Shown: positions 29,404-62,811 of the stretch, piece by piece
How the letters are laid out: every line of letters begins with the position of its first letter
Position numbering within the stretch: position 1 is the stretch's first letter
The notes under the pieces: generated by a model
What the model saw: only the letters and a program-made list of their open reading frames with translations
The model's database searches: none
What the model was told of the DNA's origin: nothing
From: Halomicrobium urmianum
GTDB lineage: Archaea; Halobacteriota; Halobacteria; Halobacteriales; Haloarculaceae
Length of the DNA: 64,000 bases
Reading direction: 5' to 3'
Assembly: GCF_020217425.1 (NCBI RefSeq)
Contig: NZ_CP084090.1
Location: forward strand, 2,294,001-2,358,000
Position numbers and translations under genes: made by a program

Positions 29404-30915
29404 ATGACCGACAACACACGTCCGAACGACGCCGTACCGCTCTCGGAAGCGACGACATCGTCGAGCCCGTTCGTCCCGCGAGCGTCGACGTGGCTGGTCT
29501 GGGGCCTGTTCCTGCTGGCCGCGGGGCTGCTCGCCGTGACGACGGCGGGCGGATACGAGCTGACGGTCCCCGGACCGTTCGCCGTCGACGGGCTGACGGT
29601 GCTCATGTGGACCGTTGTAACCTTCTTCAGCGGCATCGTCCACAGCTACTCCCGCCGCTACATGGCCGGCGACGAGCGCGTCGAGGGATTCTTCGCCCGC
29701 GTGCTCGGGTTCACGCTCGCGGTGATGACGATGGCCGCGGCCGACCACCTCGCGCTGTTCGTGGCCGCGTGGCTGGCGATGGGCCTGCTGATGGCGTCGC
29801 TCATCGGCCACGACCGCGAGTGGCACCAGGCCAGGGCCGCCGCGGGGCTCGCGCGCCGGTACTTCGTCGCCTCCAGCGCGCTCCTCGCCGTCGCGGCGGC
29901 GATCCTGGCGTGGGCGACGGGCACCGCGACGATCACCGGAGTTCTCGGTAGCGTCGACGGGATTCCGACCGCGGCCGCGCTCACGGCCGCCGGCTGTCTG
30001 GTCCTCGCGGCGATGATCCAGTCGGCGCTCCTGCCCTTCCACCGCTGGCTGCTGTCCTCGATGACCGCGCCCACGACGGCGTCCGCGCTGATGCACGCCG
30101 GGTTCGTCAACGCGGGCGGCGTCCTCCTGACCCGGTTCGCGCCGCTGTTCGCCGACCGGGTCGCCGTCATGTCTGCCGTCGTCGCCGTCGGCGCGGTCAG
30201 CGCGCTCGCCGGCCAGGCGATGCTGCTCGTCCAGACGGACGTCAAGCGCAAGCTCGGGACCTCCACCGTCGCCCAGATGGGCTTCATGATCCTGCAGGCC
30301 GGGCTGGGCTTCTTCGCCGCCGCGATCACGCACCTCGTCCTCCACGGGTTCTACAAGGCGTACCTGTTCCTCTCTTCGGGCGCGGCCGTCGAGCAGACCG
30401 CACCGAAGGGGAGCTACGGCGACGGAGGCGGCCTCGCGACGCTGGCCGTCGCGGGCCTGACCGCGATCGGCGGCGGCGCGCTGTTCGCCGCCCTCACTGG
30501 GAAGGGGATCGCGTTCGACGGCGGCGTCGCCCTGACGTTCGACAGCGGCGTGGTCCTGACGCTCGTCGTCGTCGTGACGACGCTGCACGCGGCGCGGGAC
30601 GTCCTTCGCCGGACGAAGCTGTCGCCGATCGTCAGGCTCGCCGCGACGCCGCTGCTCGTCCTGACCGCCATCGGCGTCTACGGCCTGCTGTTCGAGGCGA
30701 TCTCGACGGTGATGGCCGACGTCCCGATGTACTCGTCACCGACCGAACTGACCGCCGTCCACGGCGCCGTCGCCGCCCTGTTCGTCGCCGGCTACGCGGT
30801 GACGGACCTCGGCTGGCACCGGTCCAGCCGGCGGCTCTACGTGACGCTTCTGAACCTCTCGCAGCCGGATTCGGACACCGTTCTCACCCGCAAGGAGGAC
30901 TACAATGACGCGTAA
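29404..30915 (+). CDS. dabB: DabB: NuoL/MrpA-like proton-conducting subunit of the DAB inorganic-carbon transporter
   Basis: The 503-aa membrane protein belongs to the proton-conducting antiporter subunit family (NuoL/NdhF/MrpA). The conserved core includes FSGIVHSYSRRYMAGDERVE, then HRWLLSSMTAPTTASALMHA, a classic NuoL helix-7/8 block, and LVQTDVKRKLGTSTVAQMGF. About 13 helices are expected. It overlaps by 11 bases the DUF2309 gene that follows. That pairing, with no other complex I genes around, identifies DabB, which couples ion flow to CO2 or bicarbonate uptake by DabA. Confidence 0.9.
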   Translation: MTDNTRPNDAVPLSEATTSSSPFVPRASTWLVWGLFLLAAGLLAVTTAGGYELTVPGPFAVDGLTVLMWTVVTFFSGIVHSYSRRYMAGDERVEGFFARVLGFTLAVMTMAAADHLALFVAAWLAMGLLMASLIGHDREWHQARAAAGLARRYFVASSALLAVAAAILAWATGTATITGVLGSVDGIPTAAALTAAGCLVLAAMIQSALLPFHRWLLSSMTAPTTASALMHAGFVNAGGVLLTRFAPLFADRVAVMSAVVAVGAVSALAGQAMLLVQTDVKRKLGTSTVAQMGFMILQAGLGFFAAAITHLVLHGFYKAYLFLSSGAAVEQTAPKGSYGDGGGLATLAVAGLTAIGGGALFAALTGKGIAFDGGVALTFDSGVVLTLVVVVTTLHAARDVLRRTKLSPIVRLAATPLLVLTAIGVYGLLFEAISTVMADVPMYSSPTELTAVHGAVAALFVAGYAVTDLGWHRSSRRLYVTLLNLSQPDSDTVLTRKEDYNDA

Positions 30916-33310
30916 CGCCCACCTCGACGACCGCATCGATCGCGCAGCCGAGACGGTCGGCACGGTCTGGCCGCTGCACTCCTTCGTCACGGCCAACCCG
31001 CTTGCCGGACTCGAGGACCGGCCGTTCCACCGTGCCGCCGCGGAGGCCGAGCAGTTGTTCGGCGGCCGGGGCTATCCGCACCCATCGGTCTTCCGCCGGG
31101 CCTGGGAGAACGGCCAGATCGACCCCGAGGTGCTGCGCGAGGAACTCGACGCCCGCGGCGTCGACGGCGAGCCCGAGGCCCTCCTGGACGAGATGGCCGC
31201 GGACGAGGCCGAGGCCGACGACGCCGGCTCCGACTCGCCGGCCGACGAGCTCGACCGCGTACTCTCGAAGTGGCTGGCCGCCTTCCTCGATCAGGGCCAG
31301 GCCGAGTGGGCGATGCCCGACCGCGAGGCGGGGTTCTACGCCGCCTGGCGCGCTGTCGCGCCGCACGACGGCGACGTCCCGGGCTGCGAGCGGGCGTCCG
31401 AGCTCCCCGATACCGCGACGGCGGCGCTGGAGGCGGCCGTCGACGGGATCCCCGAGGACCGCTGGGGGGACGTCTTCGAGCACCACCTCGCCGCGCTGCC
31501 CGGCTGGACCGGCCTCGTCAAGCAACGGGAGGACGCGGACGCCGACCCGTGGCAGGGCGAGTTCCCGATCTCGCTGCGCGAGTACCTGGCGGTGCGGCTG
31601 ACGCTGGCCGACAAGCTCGGTGCGCCGATCGACCCCGGGGAGACCCCCGGCGAGAGCGACGACGCTGACGCCGACGAGGTGCCCCTCGAAGAGGTCTGGC
31701 TGAGCGCGTGGGAGAAGAGCTACCGCGACCGGCTCGTCGACGGCCTCGACGACGACGTCGAGGCGTCCTCGGCGGGCACGGACGGGTCGCGCCCGGCCGC
31801 CCAGCTCGTGTTCTGCATCGACACGCGCTCGGAGATCGTCCGCCGGCACATCGAAGACGCGGGGCCCTACGACACGCACGGCTACGCCGGCTTCTTCGGC
31901 GTCCCGATGCGCTACGAGGGCTACGAGTCGGACGTGGCCGTCGACGCCTGCCCGCCCATCGTCGACCCGGAGCATCGGGTCGCCGACCGGCCGGCCGAGG
32001 ACTGCCGGGACGACGCGTCGGCGTACGACGGCTGGCGCCACCTGGTCTCCGCGGGGCGCAAGCACCTCAAGTCGCTCAAGACCGACGTGGCCGCGGCCTT
32101 CACCTTCGTCGAGGGCGCCGGGAGCGCCTACGGCGCCGCGATGGCCGGCCGGACGCTGCTGCCCGCCGCCGTCCACGACCTCGCCGACGCCGTCGACGAG
32201 CGGACGCCCGATTCCCACGAGTTCTGCTCGCCGACGGTCGAGCGCGAGGGCGAGGCGCACGCCAACGGCGGCCTCCCGCGGGGGATGACCCTCGACGAGA
32301 AGGCGGGCTACGCCGAGGCCGCCTTCGACCTCATGGGCTGGGAGTCGTTCGCCCGCCTGGTCGTCTTCACGGGCCACGCGAGCGAGACGACGAACAACCC
32401 GTTCGAGTCGAGCCTCGACTGCGGCGCCTGCGCCGGCAACCCCGGCGGGCCCAGCGCCCGCGTGCTCGCCGAGATCTGCAACGACCCCGCGGTCCGGTCG
32501 GAACTCCGTGACCGCGGGCACGAGATTCCGGCGGACACCGTCTTCCTCGCCGCCGAACACAACACGACGACCGACGAGATCGCGCTGTTCGACGGCGACG
32601 TGCCCGAGAGCCACGCCGAGGACGTCGAGCGCCTCCGCGAGGACCTGGCCGAGGCCCGCGCCGCCGCGGCGGCCGAGCGCACCGAGTCGATGCGGACCGG
32701 CCGCGACGACGGCGTCCGCGAGACGGAGCGCCGGGCCGCCGACTGGGCCGAGACCCGCCCCGAGTGGGGGCTGGCCGGCAACGCCTCGTTCGTCATCGGC
32801 CCGCGCGAACTGACCGAGGACCGCGACCTCGACGGCCGCGCGTTCCTGCACTCCTACGACTGGAGCACGGACCCCGACGGCGACGCGCTGGAGGCCATCG
32901 TGACGGGGCCGCTCGTCGTCACGCAGTGGATCAACAACCAGTACTACTTCGCCACCGTCGACAACGCCGTCTACGGCAGCGGCTCGAAGGTCACCCAGAA
33001 CCCCGTCGGCAACGTCGGCGTCTACCAGGGCAACGGCGGCGACGTCATGACCGGGCTGCCCCTCCAGTCGCTCAAGGTCGACGACGACCAGCCCTACCAC
33101 CAGCCGCTCCGCCTGACCGCGGTCGTCCACGCGCCGGTCGATCGGGTCACCGAGATCCTCGGCCGCCACGAGGAGGTCGCTCAACTGTTCGACAACGGCT
33201 GGATGCGCCTGACCGTCGTCGACCCCGAGCGGGGCAACGAGCCAGTCCACTACCAGGGCGACCTGGAGTGGGACGCCGCGCCGCAGAAGGTGGCCGCGCT
33301 CGCGGACTGA
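30905..33310 (+). CDS. dabA: DabA (DUF2309): zinc-dependent, carbonic-anhydrase-like subunit of the DAB transporter
   Basis: The 801-aa product matches DUF2309. The zinc site of characterised DabA proteins is formed by Cys, Asp, His and Cys. Here they are C304 and D306 in LVFCIDTRSEIVRRHIE, H491 in FTGHASETTNNPFESSLDC, and C506 at the end of that motif. The 15-residue His-Cys spacing equals that of the bacterial enzyme. HNTTTDE and a C-terminal MTGLPLQSL block are also present. It is soluble and membrane-associated through DabB. It converts CO2 to bicarbonate in a vectorial reaction energised by DabB. Confidence 0.92.
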   Translation: MTRNAHLDDRIDRAAETVGTVWPLHSFVTANPLAGLEDRPFHRAAAEAEQLFGGRGYPHPSVFRRAWENGQIDPEVLREELDARGVDGEPEALLDEMAADEAEADDAGSDSPADELDRVLSKWLAAFLDQGQAEWAMPDREAGFYAAWRAVAPHDGDVPGCERASELPDTATAALEAAVDGIPEDRWGDVFEHHLAALPGWTGLVKQREDADADPWQGEFPISLREYLAVRLTLADKLGAPIDPGETPGESDDADADEVPLEEVWLSAWEKSYRDRLVDGLDDDVEASSAGTDGSRPAAQLVFCIDTRSEIVRRHIEDAGPYDTHGYAGFFGVPMRYEGYESDVAVDACPPIVDPEHRVADRPAEDCRDDASAYDGWRHLVSAGRKHLKSLKTDVAAAFTFVEGAGSAYGAAMAGRTLLPAAVHDLADAVDERTPDSHEFCSPTVEREGEAHANGGLPRGMTLDEKAGYAEAAFDLMGWESFARLVVFTGHASETTNNPFESSLDCGACAGNPGGPSARVLAEICNDPAVRSELRDRGHEIPADTVFLAAEHNTTTDEIALFDGDVPESHAEDVERLREDLAEARAAAAAERTESMRTGRDDGVRETERRAADWAETRPEWGLAGNASFVIGPRELTEDRDLDGRAFLHSYDWSTDPDGDALEAIVTGPLVVTQWINNQYYFATVDNAVYGSGSKVTQNPVGNVGVYQGNGGDVMTGLPLQSLKVDDDQPYHQPLRLTAVVHAPVDRVTEILGRHEEVAQLFDNGWMRLTVVDPERGNEPVHYQGDLEWDAAPQKVAALAD

Positions 33311-49518: not shown

Positions 49519-49759
49519 CTATGTAGGGACGGTAGGACACATGATGCGTGTGATAGTGCTGTTCACTGTCTCAAGTGTCTCATACTCCCGTGGAATGTTA
49601 TAGCTTATCATGGGTGTAGATATGGATCGGAAAGGTGTGGCGGAGTAGCTGGGTAGAACTCCCCCTCTATTGATGAGTGTTGGTTCTGCGAAAGGGGGCA
49701 GATCGCAGGAGAGTGGATGGTGGGCATGTTCGACGATGTGGCGTGGTGGTGGACCGCTT

Positions 49760-49854
49760 GAAAGCCCCACGGCGCTGGACGGCACCTCAGCGGGATATCC
49801 TCGCTGCGCTCGGATAGGGCCCGCTGACGTGGCCGCCAGCGCCGTGCCCCTTTC
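49760..49854. other. 95-nt near-perfect hairpin, structured RNA or mobile-element site
   Basis: The outer arms GAAAG...CACGGCGCTGG-type and CCAGCGCC...CTTTC (49760-49778, 49836-49854) pair. Inside them CACCTCAGCGGG pairs with CCCGCTGACGTG at 11 of 12 positions. A third stem, TATCC/GGATA, closes an 11-base apical loop. The element lies between the ATPase/zinc-protein unit and the OB-fold gene. It could be a small RNA, an oriT or single-strand origin, or a recombination site. No open frame fits it. Confidence 0.6.
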
Positions 49855-50267
49855 AGTCCCGCCCAGTGGGGAGTTCCGGCCCACCTGCCGGTGGCCGGCC
49901 TGTACCCTCACTCCCGCCCTCCAGCGCGCTCCCTGCGGTCGCTCCCCGCCCACCTCCACGTTCCGGGCGCTCCGCGCCGGGCTTTCGCAGGTGGGTTATA
50001 TAGCCAGTCTGAGCATTTCTTCTTTATATAGGAATGCGCGGAATATGTGGATGGTGGAAATTGGAGTTTTAGGGCCTGTGTTCGTACTATATGGAGTAAT
50101 TGCACTATACTAATTCCAGTAATTTTATAAGGTATGAACTCAATGAAATATATGTAGGAAGACACCTTACGGACGCGCCGGACGCACCGCTCTCGGGCGG
50201 TCACGTCGGCGCAGAAGTCCGGGTGCTGGAACACCCGAACGGTGTCTTTCTACGAGGGAGAAAGACG

Positions 50268-51348
50268 ATGCAATCTAGCAAATCCAGCGGTAAGAAAGCA
50301 ACGGGTATCGATCAGGAGATTCGCCTCGGCGCGAAAGTCGAGGGGACCGAAACGCTGCTCGAACAGGTCGCCGAAACCCAGCACGGCGACGAACTCGATT
50401 ATCGGCTCAACCGGGGCCACGATTCCCGTGGCTCGCACTACGCTCGGCAGACCGATTACGACTGGACGCGCTCGACCGAGGTCGGTCCCGATCGCCGCTT
50501 CGGCGAGACGCTCGCCCAGCAAGAACGCCGACACGGTCGGGACGCCGAACAGGCCCGGCATCGGGAGGCGGCCCGCGATGCAGACGATGCAGGGATCGAC
50601 CGAGCTGCGTCGAGAACTGACCACTGCCGGGCAGGCCCAGCGTCGGCGGGACTTCTGGGAGCGGAAGCATCTCGCTGCCGGTCGGCAGACCGTGACCGTT
50701 CCCACGGGGAACTATTCGCGGACGGTCGATCCGCGGCGGCATCTCGAACGGGACACGCTGGCCGAGATTAATTCGCACGCCCATCGGATTGCCCAGCGGT
50801 TCGACGTGAGTCGGGCCGGGATTGCCCGGCGACTCGCCGAGGAGTTCGACAAGCAGAGCGTGGACGTCCCCGGGGCCGTGCTGACGGTCCTCGACGGTCT
50901 CAAAGACGATATTGGCGTGCCGACGTCAGTCGACGACATCGACCCCGAAGGCGAATCGGTGACTGTCGAGGGACGGATTACGACGCTGTTCGATCCGGCA
51001 AGCCCGAACCAGTACCAGGTGGGCTATCTCGAAGACGACGCCGGCAACCGGGTGAAGGTCACCGTCTGGGTACGGTCGACCCACGGCCCGATGATCCGCA
51101 CGCTTCGAGAGGGCGACCGGGTGCGTATTGTCGACGGCAAGCCCGGGCAGTTTGCCGGGACCAAGACCGTCGCCGTTACGAGCGAGACCTGTCTATGTGT
51201 GCTTGAGCAGGGTGAAGGACCTGCTCCGACTGGCGAGTGTCGGATCGCAATGGGCTGTAATGGCTCCCGCGTTCGGATGGCCGCGTGGCGAGCTGACGCA
51301 CCCACTCATCAGTGGGCGAACGTCCGGAACGCAATCGGGCAGAGCTAG
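50268..51348 (+). pseudogene. Frameshifted OB-fold (RPA-like) DNA-binding protein of the mobile element
   Basis: From the ATG at 50268 the frame reads MQSSKSSGKKATGIDQEIRL and runs to DADDAGIDRA near 50610. The continuation, RRELTTAGQAQRRRDFW onward, is in the next frame to 51348. The second part contains an OB-fold segment: VTVEGRITTLFDPASPNQYQ, VGYLEDDAGNRVKVTVWV, and LREGDRVRIVDGKPG. Joined, they make about a 359-aa protein like those found beside haloarchaeal conjugation ATPases. One base near 50600-50620 breaks it, by real decay or by sequencing error. Confidence 0.7.
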
Positions 51349-60966: not shown

Positions 60967-62811
60967 TCACATGGTGTCTGCGACGTACGTCTGGATCTGC
61001 TCCTCGACGAGTTGTGCGGGCTCTTTGCCCGCCTCCTCGGCAAGTTCCGAAAGGACAGCGGCTATCGGTCCCTCGAGCGTGATCGAAAACTCTCGCTGCA
61101 CGTCTGCGATATCGAGCCGCGCACGAAGTGCGTCTTCGACGAACGCGCCAGTAGAGGCGTACTCGCTGTCGTCCCCGCAGAGAGCGTCGACGAGCGTCCG
61201 CTGGTTGGCAGTGAGATCGAGCGGTACCGGTGCAGTCTCGGGAGCAGACACCTGCGTAACGGTCGGCTCGCTTCCGTCGACTGCGCGCTTGAGATGCTCG
61301 CTAACTGCCTCGACAACAAATCCCTCGTCGCGACGGCTGGCTAGCGCTGCGACGACTGCCGAGACTTCGACGGTGTCAGCTGTCGCAGTCGGCTCGCCGT
61401 TTGTTTTAGCTGTCTCGCTCGGTTCATCTAGCTCTCCGGAATCCGAAGAACCGGCTGTAGCAGCGACGTTTTGGCGCCCGTCACCATTCTCGTTCTCGTC
61501 TCTGTTCACGTCTACTCTCGAGCCCGATTGCCGTCGTCCGAGGTCCTGATCGGACTGACTGTCGTGACGTCGGGCGAAATTCCAGAACGACTCGTGCTGC
61601 TCGCGCAGCGGACTGAGCGTCTCCGTGGACAGGTACTGAATAGCGTCGCCCGTCCGGTCGGCGGTGACGAGGTTCCAGAACTCGTCTGTGTCGAATGCAA
61701 CCTGACCACCTGACATACCGACGAGGAGAAACGGCCAGGGCTGATCGGGGCCTTCGACTCTGATGCCGTCATCGTACTGTGCCCAGAGCGTCGTTGTGGC
61801 GTTCCAGTCGCGGACGTGCTCGTCGACGGTGAACGCGTACGTATCGCTGTCGGACGACGCGAGAACGATATCTCCCGGACTGACGTGACTCCAGTGTTCT
61901 TCTTGCTCTTCCGGTAGCCCCCACGCGTAACCGACATCGCGTCCGATCCCGTCGATTGCGTCGAGGTCGCGCGTCTGGTTCGCGACGGTCGCCTCGATCG
62001 CGTTCGCGATCGTCTCGTTGGTCGCCTCGATCACGAGAATGCCCGGAGGTGTCTCGTCGTCATCGGCATCGCCGTCCACAAGTTCCGGGAGAAATTCCTT
62101 CGCGATCTCCGCCCACTCGTGGCTGTGGTCCCTGACGCCGGTGATGAGCCCGTGATACGACTTCGATTCGACCATCTGGTCGTTCACCTCGAAGAACGTC
62201 CGCATCACCGTTTCCGGGTCGTGTTCCTCCCTAAGGAAGTACACCGGTTCTGGCATACCGCCGGCGGAATCCGTCGCCGCCTTCCCGGCCCGGACCACGA
62301 ACTTCCACATCCCGTGCTGGCGGTCGCTCACGCTCGACCCCTGTGGCATCTCGGAACTCGGGGTGGGGCCGTGCTCTCTCAGGTGCCGAACGTTCTCCGT
62401 CGCTCCGCGGTGTTCTGGCGGGTCAACTTCGGCGAAGTTGTACTGGTTCGTACTCGGCTCGATCCCCGCTTCCTCCAACGCCAGTAAGTACGAGCCGAAG
62501 ACGGACTCGTACGTCTCGAAGCTATAGGTGCTGAACTCGGTGATCTGCTCACCAGTCGGGGACTGTCCGAGTTCGGACGCGACGCGCTCGAGTTCCGCGA
62601 CAAGTTCTTCGGGACTGGCGTCCGGGGGATCACGATCGCCAGTGACACCGGCGGCTTCGAGCGCATTATACCACGTACCGAACTCGGCAATATAGTCCCG
62701 GATACCGCCGTCACACTCCGCCGCCACGGTCGATATATTGGGCGGTGTGTCGCTGTCAGCAGACACCGCTCGCAGATCCTCGAGAAGTTGTCCCCTGTCG
62801 ATTGCCTCCAT
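60967..62811 (-). CDS. Modular DNA-binding/PUA-like protein, candidate defence gene
   Basis: The 614-aa product has two tandem homing-endonuclease-associated repeats at residues ~5-56 and ~66-118 (second: LVAELERVASELGQSPTGEQ ... FGSYLLALEEAGIEP). A region with REHGPTPSSEMPQGS follows. At ~250-390 there is a PUA/EVE-like domain (YAWGLPEEQEEHWSHVSPGD, IVLASS, then PWPFLLVGM). After a Ser/Glu-rich linker come two ribbon-helix-helix-like units (VPLDLTANQRTLVDALCG; FSITLEGPIAAVLSELAEEA). PUA-like domains of this kind recognise modified bases in restriction proteins. No nuclease motif is seen. It is divergent from a helicase gene. Confidence 0.7.
   Translation of the reverse strand: MEAIDRGQLLEDLRAVSADSDTPPNISTVAAECDGGIRDYIAEFGTWYNALEAAGVTGDRDPPDASPEELVAELERVASELGQSPTGEQITEFSTYSFETYESVFGSYLLALEEAGIEPSTNQYNFAEVDPPEHRGATENVRHLREHGPTPSSEMPQGSSVSDRQHGMWKFVVRAGKAATDSAGGMPEPVYFLREEHDPETVMRTFFEVNDQMVESKSYHGLITGVRDHSHEWAEIAKEFLPELVDGDADDDETPPGILVIEATNETIANAIEATVANQTRDLDAIDGIGRDVGYAWGLPEEQEEHWSHVSPGDIVLASSDSDTYAFTVDEHVRDWNATTTLWAQYDDGIRVEGPDQPWPFLLVGMSGGQVAFDTDEFWNLVTADRTGDAIQYLSTETLSPLREQHESFWNFARRHDSQSDQDLGRRQSGSRVDVNRDENENGDGRQNVAATAGSSDSGELDEPSETAKTNGEPTATADTVEVSAVVAALASRRDEGFVVEAVSEHLKRAVDGSEPTVTQVSAPETAPVPLDLTANQRTLVDALCGDDSEYASTGAFVEDALRARLDIADVQREFSITLEGPIAAVLSELAEEAGKEPAQLVEEQIQTYVADTM

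Follow-up and report, generated by a model that had tools for sequence, protein, structure and literature searches.

A haloarchaeal family of DNA palindromes, dispersed between genes and placed upstream of plasmid SSB-like genes

The hairpin that lies between a coupling ATPase gene and an OB-fold gene in Halomicrobium urmianum belongs to a dispersed haloarchaeal family of DNA palindromes of about 110 nt. The members of this family occur in two settings: as a dispersed, REPIN-like repeat, and as a plasmid copy held at a fixed place upstream of an SSB gene. The hairpin was picked out in a stretch of 64,000 nucleotides of NZ_CP084090.1 (the window, in what follows), for which a preliminary description made from the letters alone had proposed a fold at 49760-49854. 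That fold was borne out with borders shifted by no more than 2 nt, giving a hairpin of 99 nt. Its outer stem pairs 49758-49764 with 49850-49856 and is followed by a long GC-rich inner stem and the apex TATCC/GGATA; the longest inverted repeat found (I1) joins 49759-49794 to 49820-49855 with 81% complementarity. The pairing was said to be far more than chance, and it is: when the 141 nt of 49740-49880 were folded as RNA, the minimum free energy was -76.2 kcal/mol (z -3.1), which 1 of 200 shuffles equalled or beat, and when folded as DNA it was -40.9 kcal/mol (z -3.4), which none of 200 did. The statement that the hairpin has no coding capacity needs a qualification, since two mechanical ORFs cross it (49519-49959 on the minus strand and 49670-50113 on the plus strand), but none of the frames stays open in a consistent way when 40 homologous copies are compared. 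The junction of divergent genes was described correctly, with the TraD-like frame on the left and the OB-fold frame on the right (Table 1). What the earlier account did not contain is the multiplicity of the hairpin, which is one of many dispersed copies.

Table 1. Features of the window around the hairpin (positions of the window; strand given as + or -, or a point where none applies)
Feature	Position	Strand	Basis
TraD/VirD4-like coupling ATPase, 1233 aa	45360-49061	-	Pfam DUF87 and TrwB_AAD_bind above cut-off
Hairpin	49758-49856	+	RNA and DNA folds, inverted repeat I1, R1 match 49754-49868
Conserved 3' tail of the hairpin, TCCCGCCC (consensus AGTCCCACCC; chromosomal type AGTCCACCAGG)	49857-49864	+	Alignments A1 and A3
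GC-rich noncoding DNA that contains the second inverted repeat, I2 (49880-49899 x 49976-49995)	49880-49995	.	Inverted-repeat search
AT-rich stretch with TATA-like sites at 50023-50032 and 50120-50132	50000-50170	+	Composition, sequence
Leader inverted repeat GAAGACACC..GGTGTCTTTC, directly 5' of the OB gene	50158-50251	+	Kept in 7 sequences of A3
OB-fold (SSB-like) gene, broken by a frameshift that lies between ~50590 and 50680	50268-51348	+	Two tblastn pieces in different frames

The coupling ATPase reached an E value of 6e-8 against the NCBIfam model SXT_TraD, yet stayed below its cut-off. To the right of the hairpin, the block 49944-49988 (GTTCCGGGC..GCCGGGCTTTCGC) is conserved in alignment A3 and recurs near OB genes elsewhere, a recurrence that is supported by partial DNA matches to positions 205-250 of the query in several genomes. 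The AT-rich stretch that follows, of which the block TTTATATA is kept in A3, is likely the promoter region of the OB gene, judging from its composition and sequence. The OB gene itself is broken. By tblastn, one piece (50268-50633) matches residues 1-125 of the pNG500 protein at 67%, and the other (50674-51333) matches residues 117-344 at 48%; at the OB gene of a relative from the same genus (L158) there is a single open frame of 386 aa. Because the SSB gene is frameshifted, the window locus is probably the relic of an integrated plasmid, and its hairpin-SSB copy may itself be a relic with the SSB gene decaying.

The family was traced both by DNA search and by a structural model. Related stretches were found by DNA search in 86 of the 195 relatives (G000 counted), and some of these matches cover the second GC-rich block alone, without the hairpin. 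Twenty aligned copies (A1) were folded, showing two-sided change at 12 of 25 pairs, and they form the basis of model R1. This model matches 15 places in the window's own genome, two of which overlap on opposite strands as expected of a palindromic element, and it matches 40 of 99 genomes sampled evenly from the order Halobacteriales, some of them at 35 or more places each; Halorussus is a copy-rich genus, with at least 35 R1 places in G183. The window hairpin scores 95 bits against R1 (E 3.3e-18), although this score is not independent, the model having been built from the window copy and 19 others. Family copies share GAAAGCCC at the 5' end, CCCTTTCA together with TCCACCAGG or TCCCACCC at the 3' end, and the apex region ATATCC..GGATAG. 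A pattern for the apex core picked out 62 stretches in the genomes of 84,980 species, of which 61 are haloarchaeal by title and the remaining one is from a gut Tidjanibacter MAG. An RNA-family search of the window and six related loci against Rfam gave no relevant match, the viral contigs and phage records searched had no match to the hairpin family, and a literature search that included short DNA strings of the family found no description of it.

The stem of this family appears to evolve as a DNA palindrome and not as an RNA helix, because its changes are almost purely Watson-Crick. The evidence comes from an alignment (A4) of 95 R1 matches, 92 of them distinct, which were aligned to a structure-aware model that favours pairing but has no obvious bias against G.U. 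Among the 2286 cells of A4, 97.4% are paired, compared to 80.6% in shuffles, none of which (0 of 500) did as well, and slid controls gave 26-57%. The compensatory changes looked for in homologues are abundant: 23 of the 25 stem pairs carry two-sided changes among the 92 distinct copies, and counted by cell there are 325 two-sided changes as against 6 one-sided ones, a one-sided share of 0.018. In RNA helices of equal G+C, drift passes through G.U pairs. In haloarchaeal SRP RNA (G+C 0.70), to which the same count was applied in 28 of 30 loci from the same order, two being omitted, G.U amounts to 11.5% of standard pairs, and 154 one-sided changes stand against 325 two-sided ones (ratio 0.32); in the hairpin family G.U is 0.9%, and the tolerance of G.U that is typical of RNA helices is thus absent. 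With A4 refolded without the structure of R1, G.U came to 1.2% and the one-sided ratio to 0.048, and single copies folded on their own had a median z of -4.4, with 74 of 92 lying below all 50 of their own shuffles. Taken as sequence evidence, this argues that the arms of the palindrome are kept complementary at the level of DNA, and a small RNA is disfavoured as the nature of the hairpin; the scarcity of G.U could come in part from repeated copying from parents that were already matched. The functional ideas of the preliminary description (oriT, single-strand origin, recombination site or small RNA) are partly supported as a set: nearly pure Watson-Crick pairing speaks against the small RNA, and the linkage to an SSB-like gene and a coupling-type ATPase would fit a single-strand origin or oriT.

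In the first setting, the copies are spread over chromosomes and megaplasmids. Six R1 copies were found along 150 kb of NZ_CP099994, a plasmid of Halorussus salilacus; all six lie between annotated genes, in three cases convergent ones. At the tryptophanase junction of this species there are about 515 nt containing the hairpin and tandem partial repeats, and in H. limi the same two genes stand 103 nt apart with no hairpin, so that the hairpin has been gained or lost at this one chromosomal site. R1 had no match in five orthologous Halorussus stretches (L277-L281), an absence that is clean at tryptophanase only, as the gene content differs at thiC and hemE aligned on one side. Several copies in the window's own genome are arranged as tail-to-tail pairs 370-470 nt apart. 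Two further genomes, G002 with 23 copies and G139 with 10, have no OB match.

There are several smaller regularities around these copies. Partial repeats of the 5' end occur upstream of hairpins at a spacing of 48, 51, 54, 57, 63 or 72 nt (L089-L095, L098, L100, L107 and L121-L127 are among such loci), and the spacing is a multiple of 3 in all 25 loci that have one, out of 83. A coding gene in these repeats was considered and rejected: some frames look protein-like, but the stops differ by locus and no frame is consistently open, and by eye the frame shifts between lineages relative to the conserved nucleotides. A CRISPR-like array was rejected as well; repeats with a period of 54 are present, but within one array the variable parts frequently occur in duplicate. 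Tandem repeats of 26-27 nt lie directly 3' of the hairpin in three Halorussus loci (L091, at 1124-1223, L093 and L094). In G002 (L109-L120) an inverted partner comes after the hairpin, and the two together carry the terminal motif GTGTTCAGATAAGAGAC at their flanks in a MITE-like manner.

In the second setting, to which the window copy belongs, the hairpin lies upstream of a plasmid SSB-like OB-fold gene and shares its strand. Used as a query against plasmid records, the window hairpin had twelve matches, eleven in Haloarcula and one in Salinibaculum; the hairpins of pNG500 and pHH126 are each directly followed downstream by a gene annotated as SOSS-B family (OB-fold). The pNG500 OB protein has matches in 97 of 195 relative genomes. 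Presence in related elements, the other point that bore on the preliminary description, was found at the corresponding place: R1 matches upstream of the OB gene and on its strand in 16 of 30 loci, including ones whose proteins are only about 40-46% identical, and in a further 40 loci at E<0.03 in 24, all on the OB strand. These counts are of loci and not of independent events, with near-duplicates among them (L216/L217 and L232/L233/L235). Where the 5' pattern is also seen, the hairpin starts 690-880 nt before the tblastn match. The window's own genome has a second hairpin-OB pair on contig C2, with R1 at 96319-96441 and the OB match at 94905-95603, both on the minus strand. PLSDB assigns the type MPF_T to seven of the nine plasmid records with an OB gene that were viewed. 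The OB protein has only weak matches in Pfam (REPA_OB_2, E 0.004, below cut-off), and a nine-sequence profile of it hits archaeal OB-fold proteins and SSBs of solved structure (2kbn, E 4e-8; 1o7i, E 5e-4). The linked gene resembles Rfa5 and Rfa6 of Halobacterium salinarum in having a single OB fold and being borne on a minichromosome; deletion of these two single-OB SSBs leads to mitomycin C sensitivity, and the portion of the account consulted makes no mention of an upstream element (PMC5924565). The OB member of pNRC200 has 900 nt, a length from which we infer that it fits the 299 aa of Rfa6 (PMC5924565).

In most other plasmids the hairpin is joined to the SSB gene by a noncoding module of 540-710 nt. 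Twenty-two loci of 543-710 nt each were aligned (A2; 796 columns) with a mean column identity of 70%, and the identity between genera can be as high as about 90%. The A2 profile matches 35 of the further 40 loci, 21 of the 40 being themselves in the profile. Of the 164 plasmid records hit by one module stretch used as a query (254 places in all), 47 matched over at least 80% of its length; phage records gave no match. In the window and Haloarcula forms a shorter GC-rich stretch accompanies the hairpin (A3). The A2 profile matches neither of these forms, and the idea that the module extends the window form was rejected for that reason. RNAalifold predicts 119 pairs for the A2 module, 15 with two-sided change, and G.U is 9.4%. 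Of 23 loci, 6 have a TATA-like box 63-71 nt in front of the hairpin. By these two signs the region may be an RNA leader or otherwise structured at the RNA level, though the predicted fold may also be partly spurious. In most of the 23 loci (L202-L241) a short inverted repeat ends one base before the OB start codon, and its sequence varies by locus with complementarity kept (GGAAC..GTTCC, GGATC..GATCC). In pNRC200 (L242 5085-8808) the A2 profile match is split in two by intervening genes for TnpB and a PhzF-like protein.

It is worth comparing the family with known systems, as far as the consulted portions of the cited papers describe them. REPINs and REP-BIME are extragenic, dispersed inverted doublets of about 100 nt with predicted ssDNA folds (PMC3116915). 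The palindrome family is like them in being dispersed, intergenic and multi-copy, in its compensatory changes on both sides, and in its tandem arrays that include flanking sequence (PMC3116915). It differs in that several carriers have no RAYT/Y1 gene (PF01797 is absent from G002, G011, G169 and G139), in its own, haloarchaea-restricted sequence, and in the position-fixed plasmid form. The nearest described archaeal kind is the SMRs, or PATEs, of Haloquadratum walsbyi, by a comparison of descriptions and not of sequence: these are also about 110 bp, with inverted ends, tens of copies and no transposase of their own, but SMR-A insert into IS605-type palindromes, whereas the present family lies between ordinary genes (PMC3119063). 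Frpo/ssi of F-like plasmids is likewise a DNA hairpin upstream of an SSB gene on the same strand in conjugation-type plasmids (PMC11541004); it differs from the present case, where Haloarcula-type loci have TATA-like sites downstream of the hairpin and dispersed chromosomal copies exist. Among haloarchaeal mobile elements, the pleolipoviruses likewise have a conserved DNA hairpin, their Rep-Arvir origin, in which stem-disrupting mutations abolished replication, but that hairpin is about 22 nt and lies downstream of the rep gene (PMC13107129).

The explanation that we favour, and hold to be probable, is that the palindrome would act as a hairpin in single-stranded DNA or as an extruded cruciform. 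Its copies on chromosomes and megaplasmids are REPIN-like repeats between genes, present in some species and missing in others. On plasmids there is one copy of fixed place and orientation upstream of the gene for the single-OB-fold SSB, which in most lineages opens the module, and there it may serve the replication or transfer of the element or the expression of SSB. The window copy is of this plasmid kind, in the shorter Haloarcula-type form. Most likely, a REPIN-like element was taken by plasmids into an SSB-linked control region, or came out of one. An unlikely alternative to this explanation is a structured RNA, with the hairpin as the 5' domain of a leader RNA or as a separate noncoding RNA controlling the SSB gene. 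The module speaks for it, being highly conserved up to the start codon, with its two-sided pairs, its share of G.U, the TATA-like boxes in front of the hairpin and the changing inverted repeat before the ATG; but the pairing of the hairpin itself is untypical of RNA, the majority of copies lie between unrelated genes, the OB gene in the window and in Haloarcula has an AT-rich, TATA-like region of its own 3' of the hairpin, and Rfam has no match. A transcription terminator or barrier between convergent genes would suit the intergenic position of all six annotated copies and the convergent flanks of three, yet it seems highly improbable given the absence of a T-tract, the strong conservation of the ends and the apex, and the fixed upstream place before SSB genes; a scan of the window for terminators, of the bacterial type, shows no such site at the hairpin.

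Two other explanations concern the processing and the mobility of DNA. The plasmid copy might serve as an oriT, as a single-strand initiation site, or as a Frpo-like ssDNA promoter that provides for SSB during entry. Its constant position ahead of an SSB-like gene, on that gene's strand, the MPF_T typing and the pairing kept at the DNA level agree with such a site, and a bacterial Frpo can directly precede a plasmid SSB gene (PMC11541004, in the portion consulted); we nevertheless regard it as distinctly unlikely, since many chromosomal copies have no SSB or transfer genes nearby, as in the two OB-free genomes above, and no archaeal promoter motif was noticed in the stem. A bolder version would make the hairpin and module together a cis-acting ssDNA site that folds on the entering strand and recruits host transcription or priming so that SSB is made first, an archaeal counterpart of Frpo and oriT of which the chromosomal copies are escaped end versions. 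We hold this to be quite improbable; if true, it would be the long-missing cis-acting site of haloarchaeal conjugation-type plasmids. The palindrome could also be an end or a target of IS200/IS605-type elements, a PATE or small mobile repeat, to judge from the size, noncoding nature, copy number and inverted ends that resemble the Haloquadratum SMRs (PMC3119063, as far as its consulted portion describes them). This is very doubtful in view of the four copy-carrying genomes, among ten searched, that have no Y1 match, one of which (G139, with its 10 copies) lacks TnpB (PF07282) as well, and of ten Y1 genes that have no R1 match within 1.5 kb. Mobilisation by Y1 or TnpB was rejected, the copies being uncorrelated with either gene in the genomes searched.

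Haloarchaeal conjugation-type plasmids have VirB4-like and coupling proteins, and for most of them we know of no transfer origin. The hairpin and module offer a concrete noncoding sequence, a palindrome next to an SSB gene, for deletion, mapping and assay. Archaeal relaxases are described as largely unknown, with none known for most haloarchaeal elements (PMC3158045, in its consulted portion). A REPIN-like family without the Y1 transposase in several of its carriers raises the question of the copying enzyme, and the G.U count is a cheap means of telling DNA palindromes from RNA helices. Elsewhere in the window, a DabA-like inorganic-carbon transporter subunit adjoins a proton-antiporter-like protein at 29404-33310, and a 614-aa protein with homing-endonuclease-associated HNH repeats is encoded at 60967-62811 on the minus strand.
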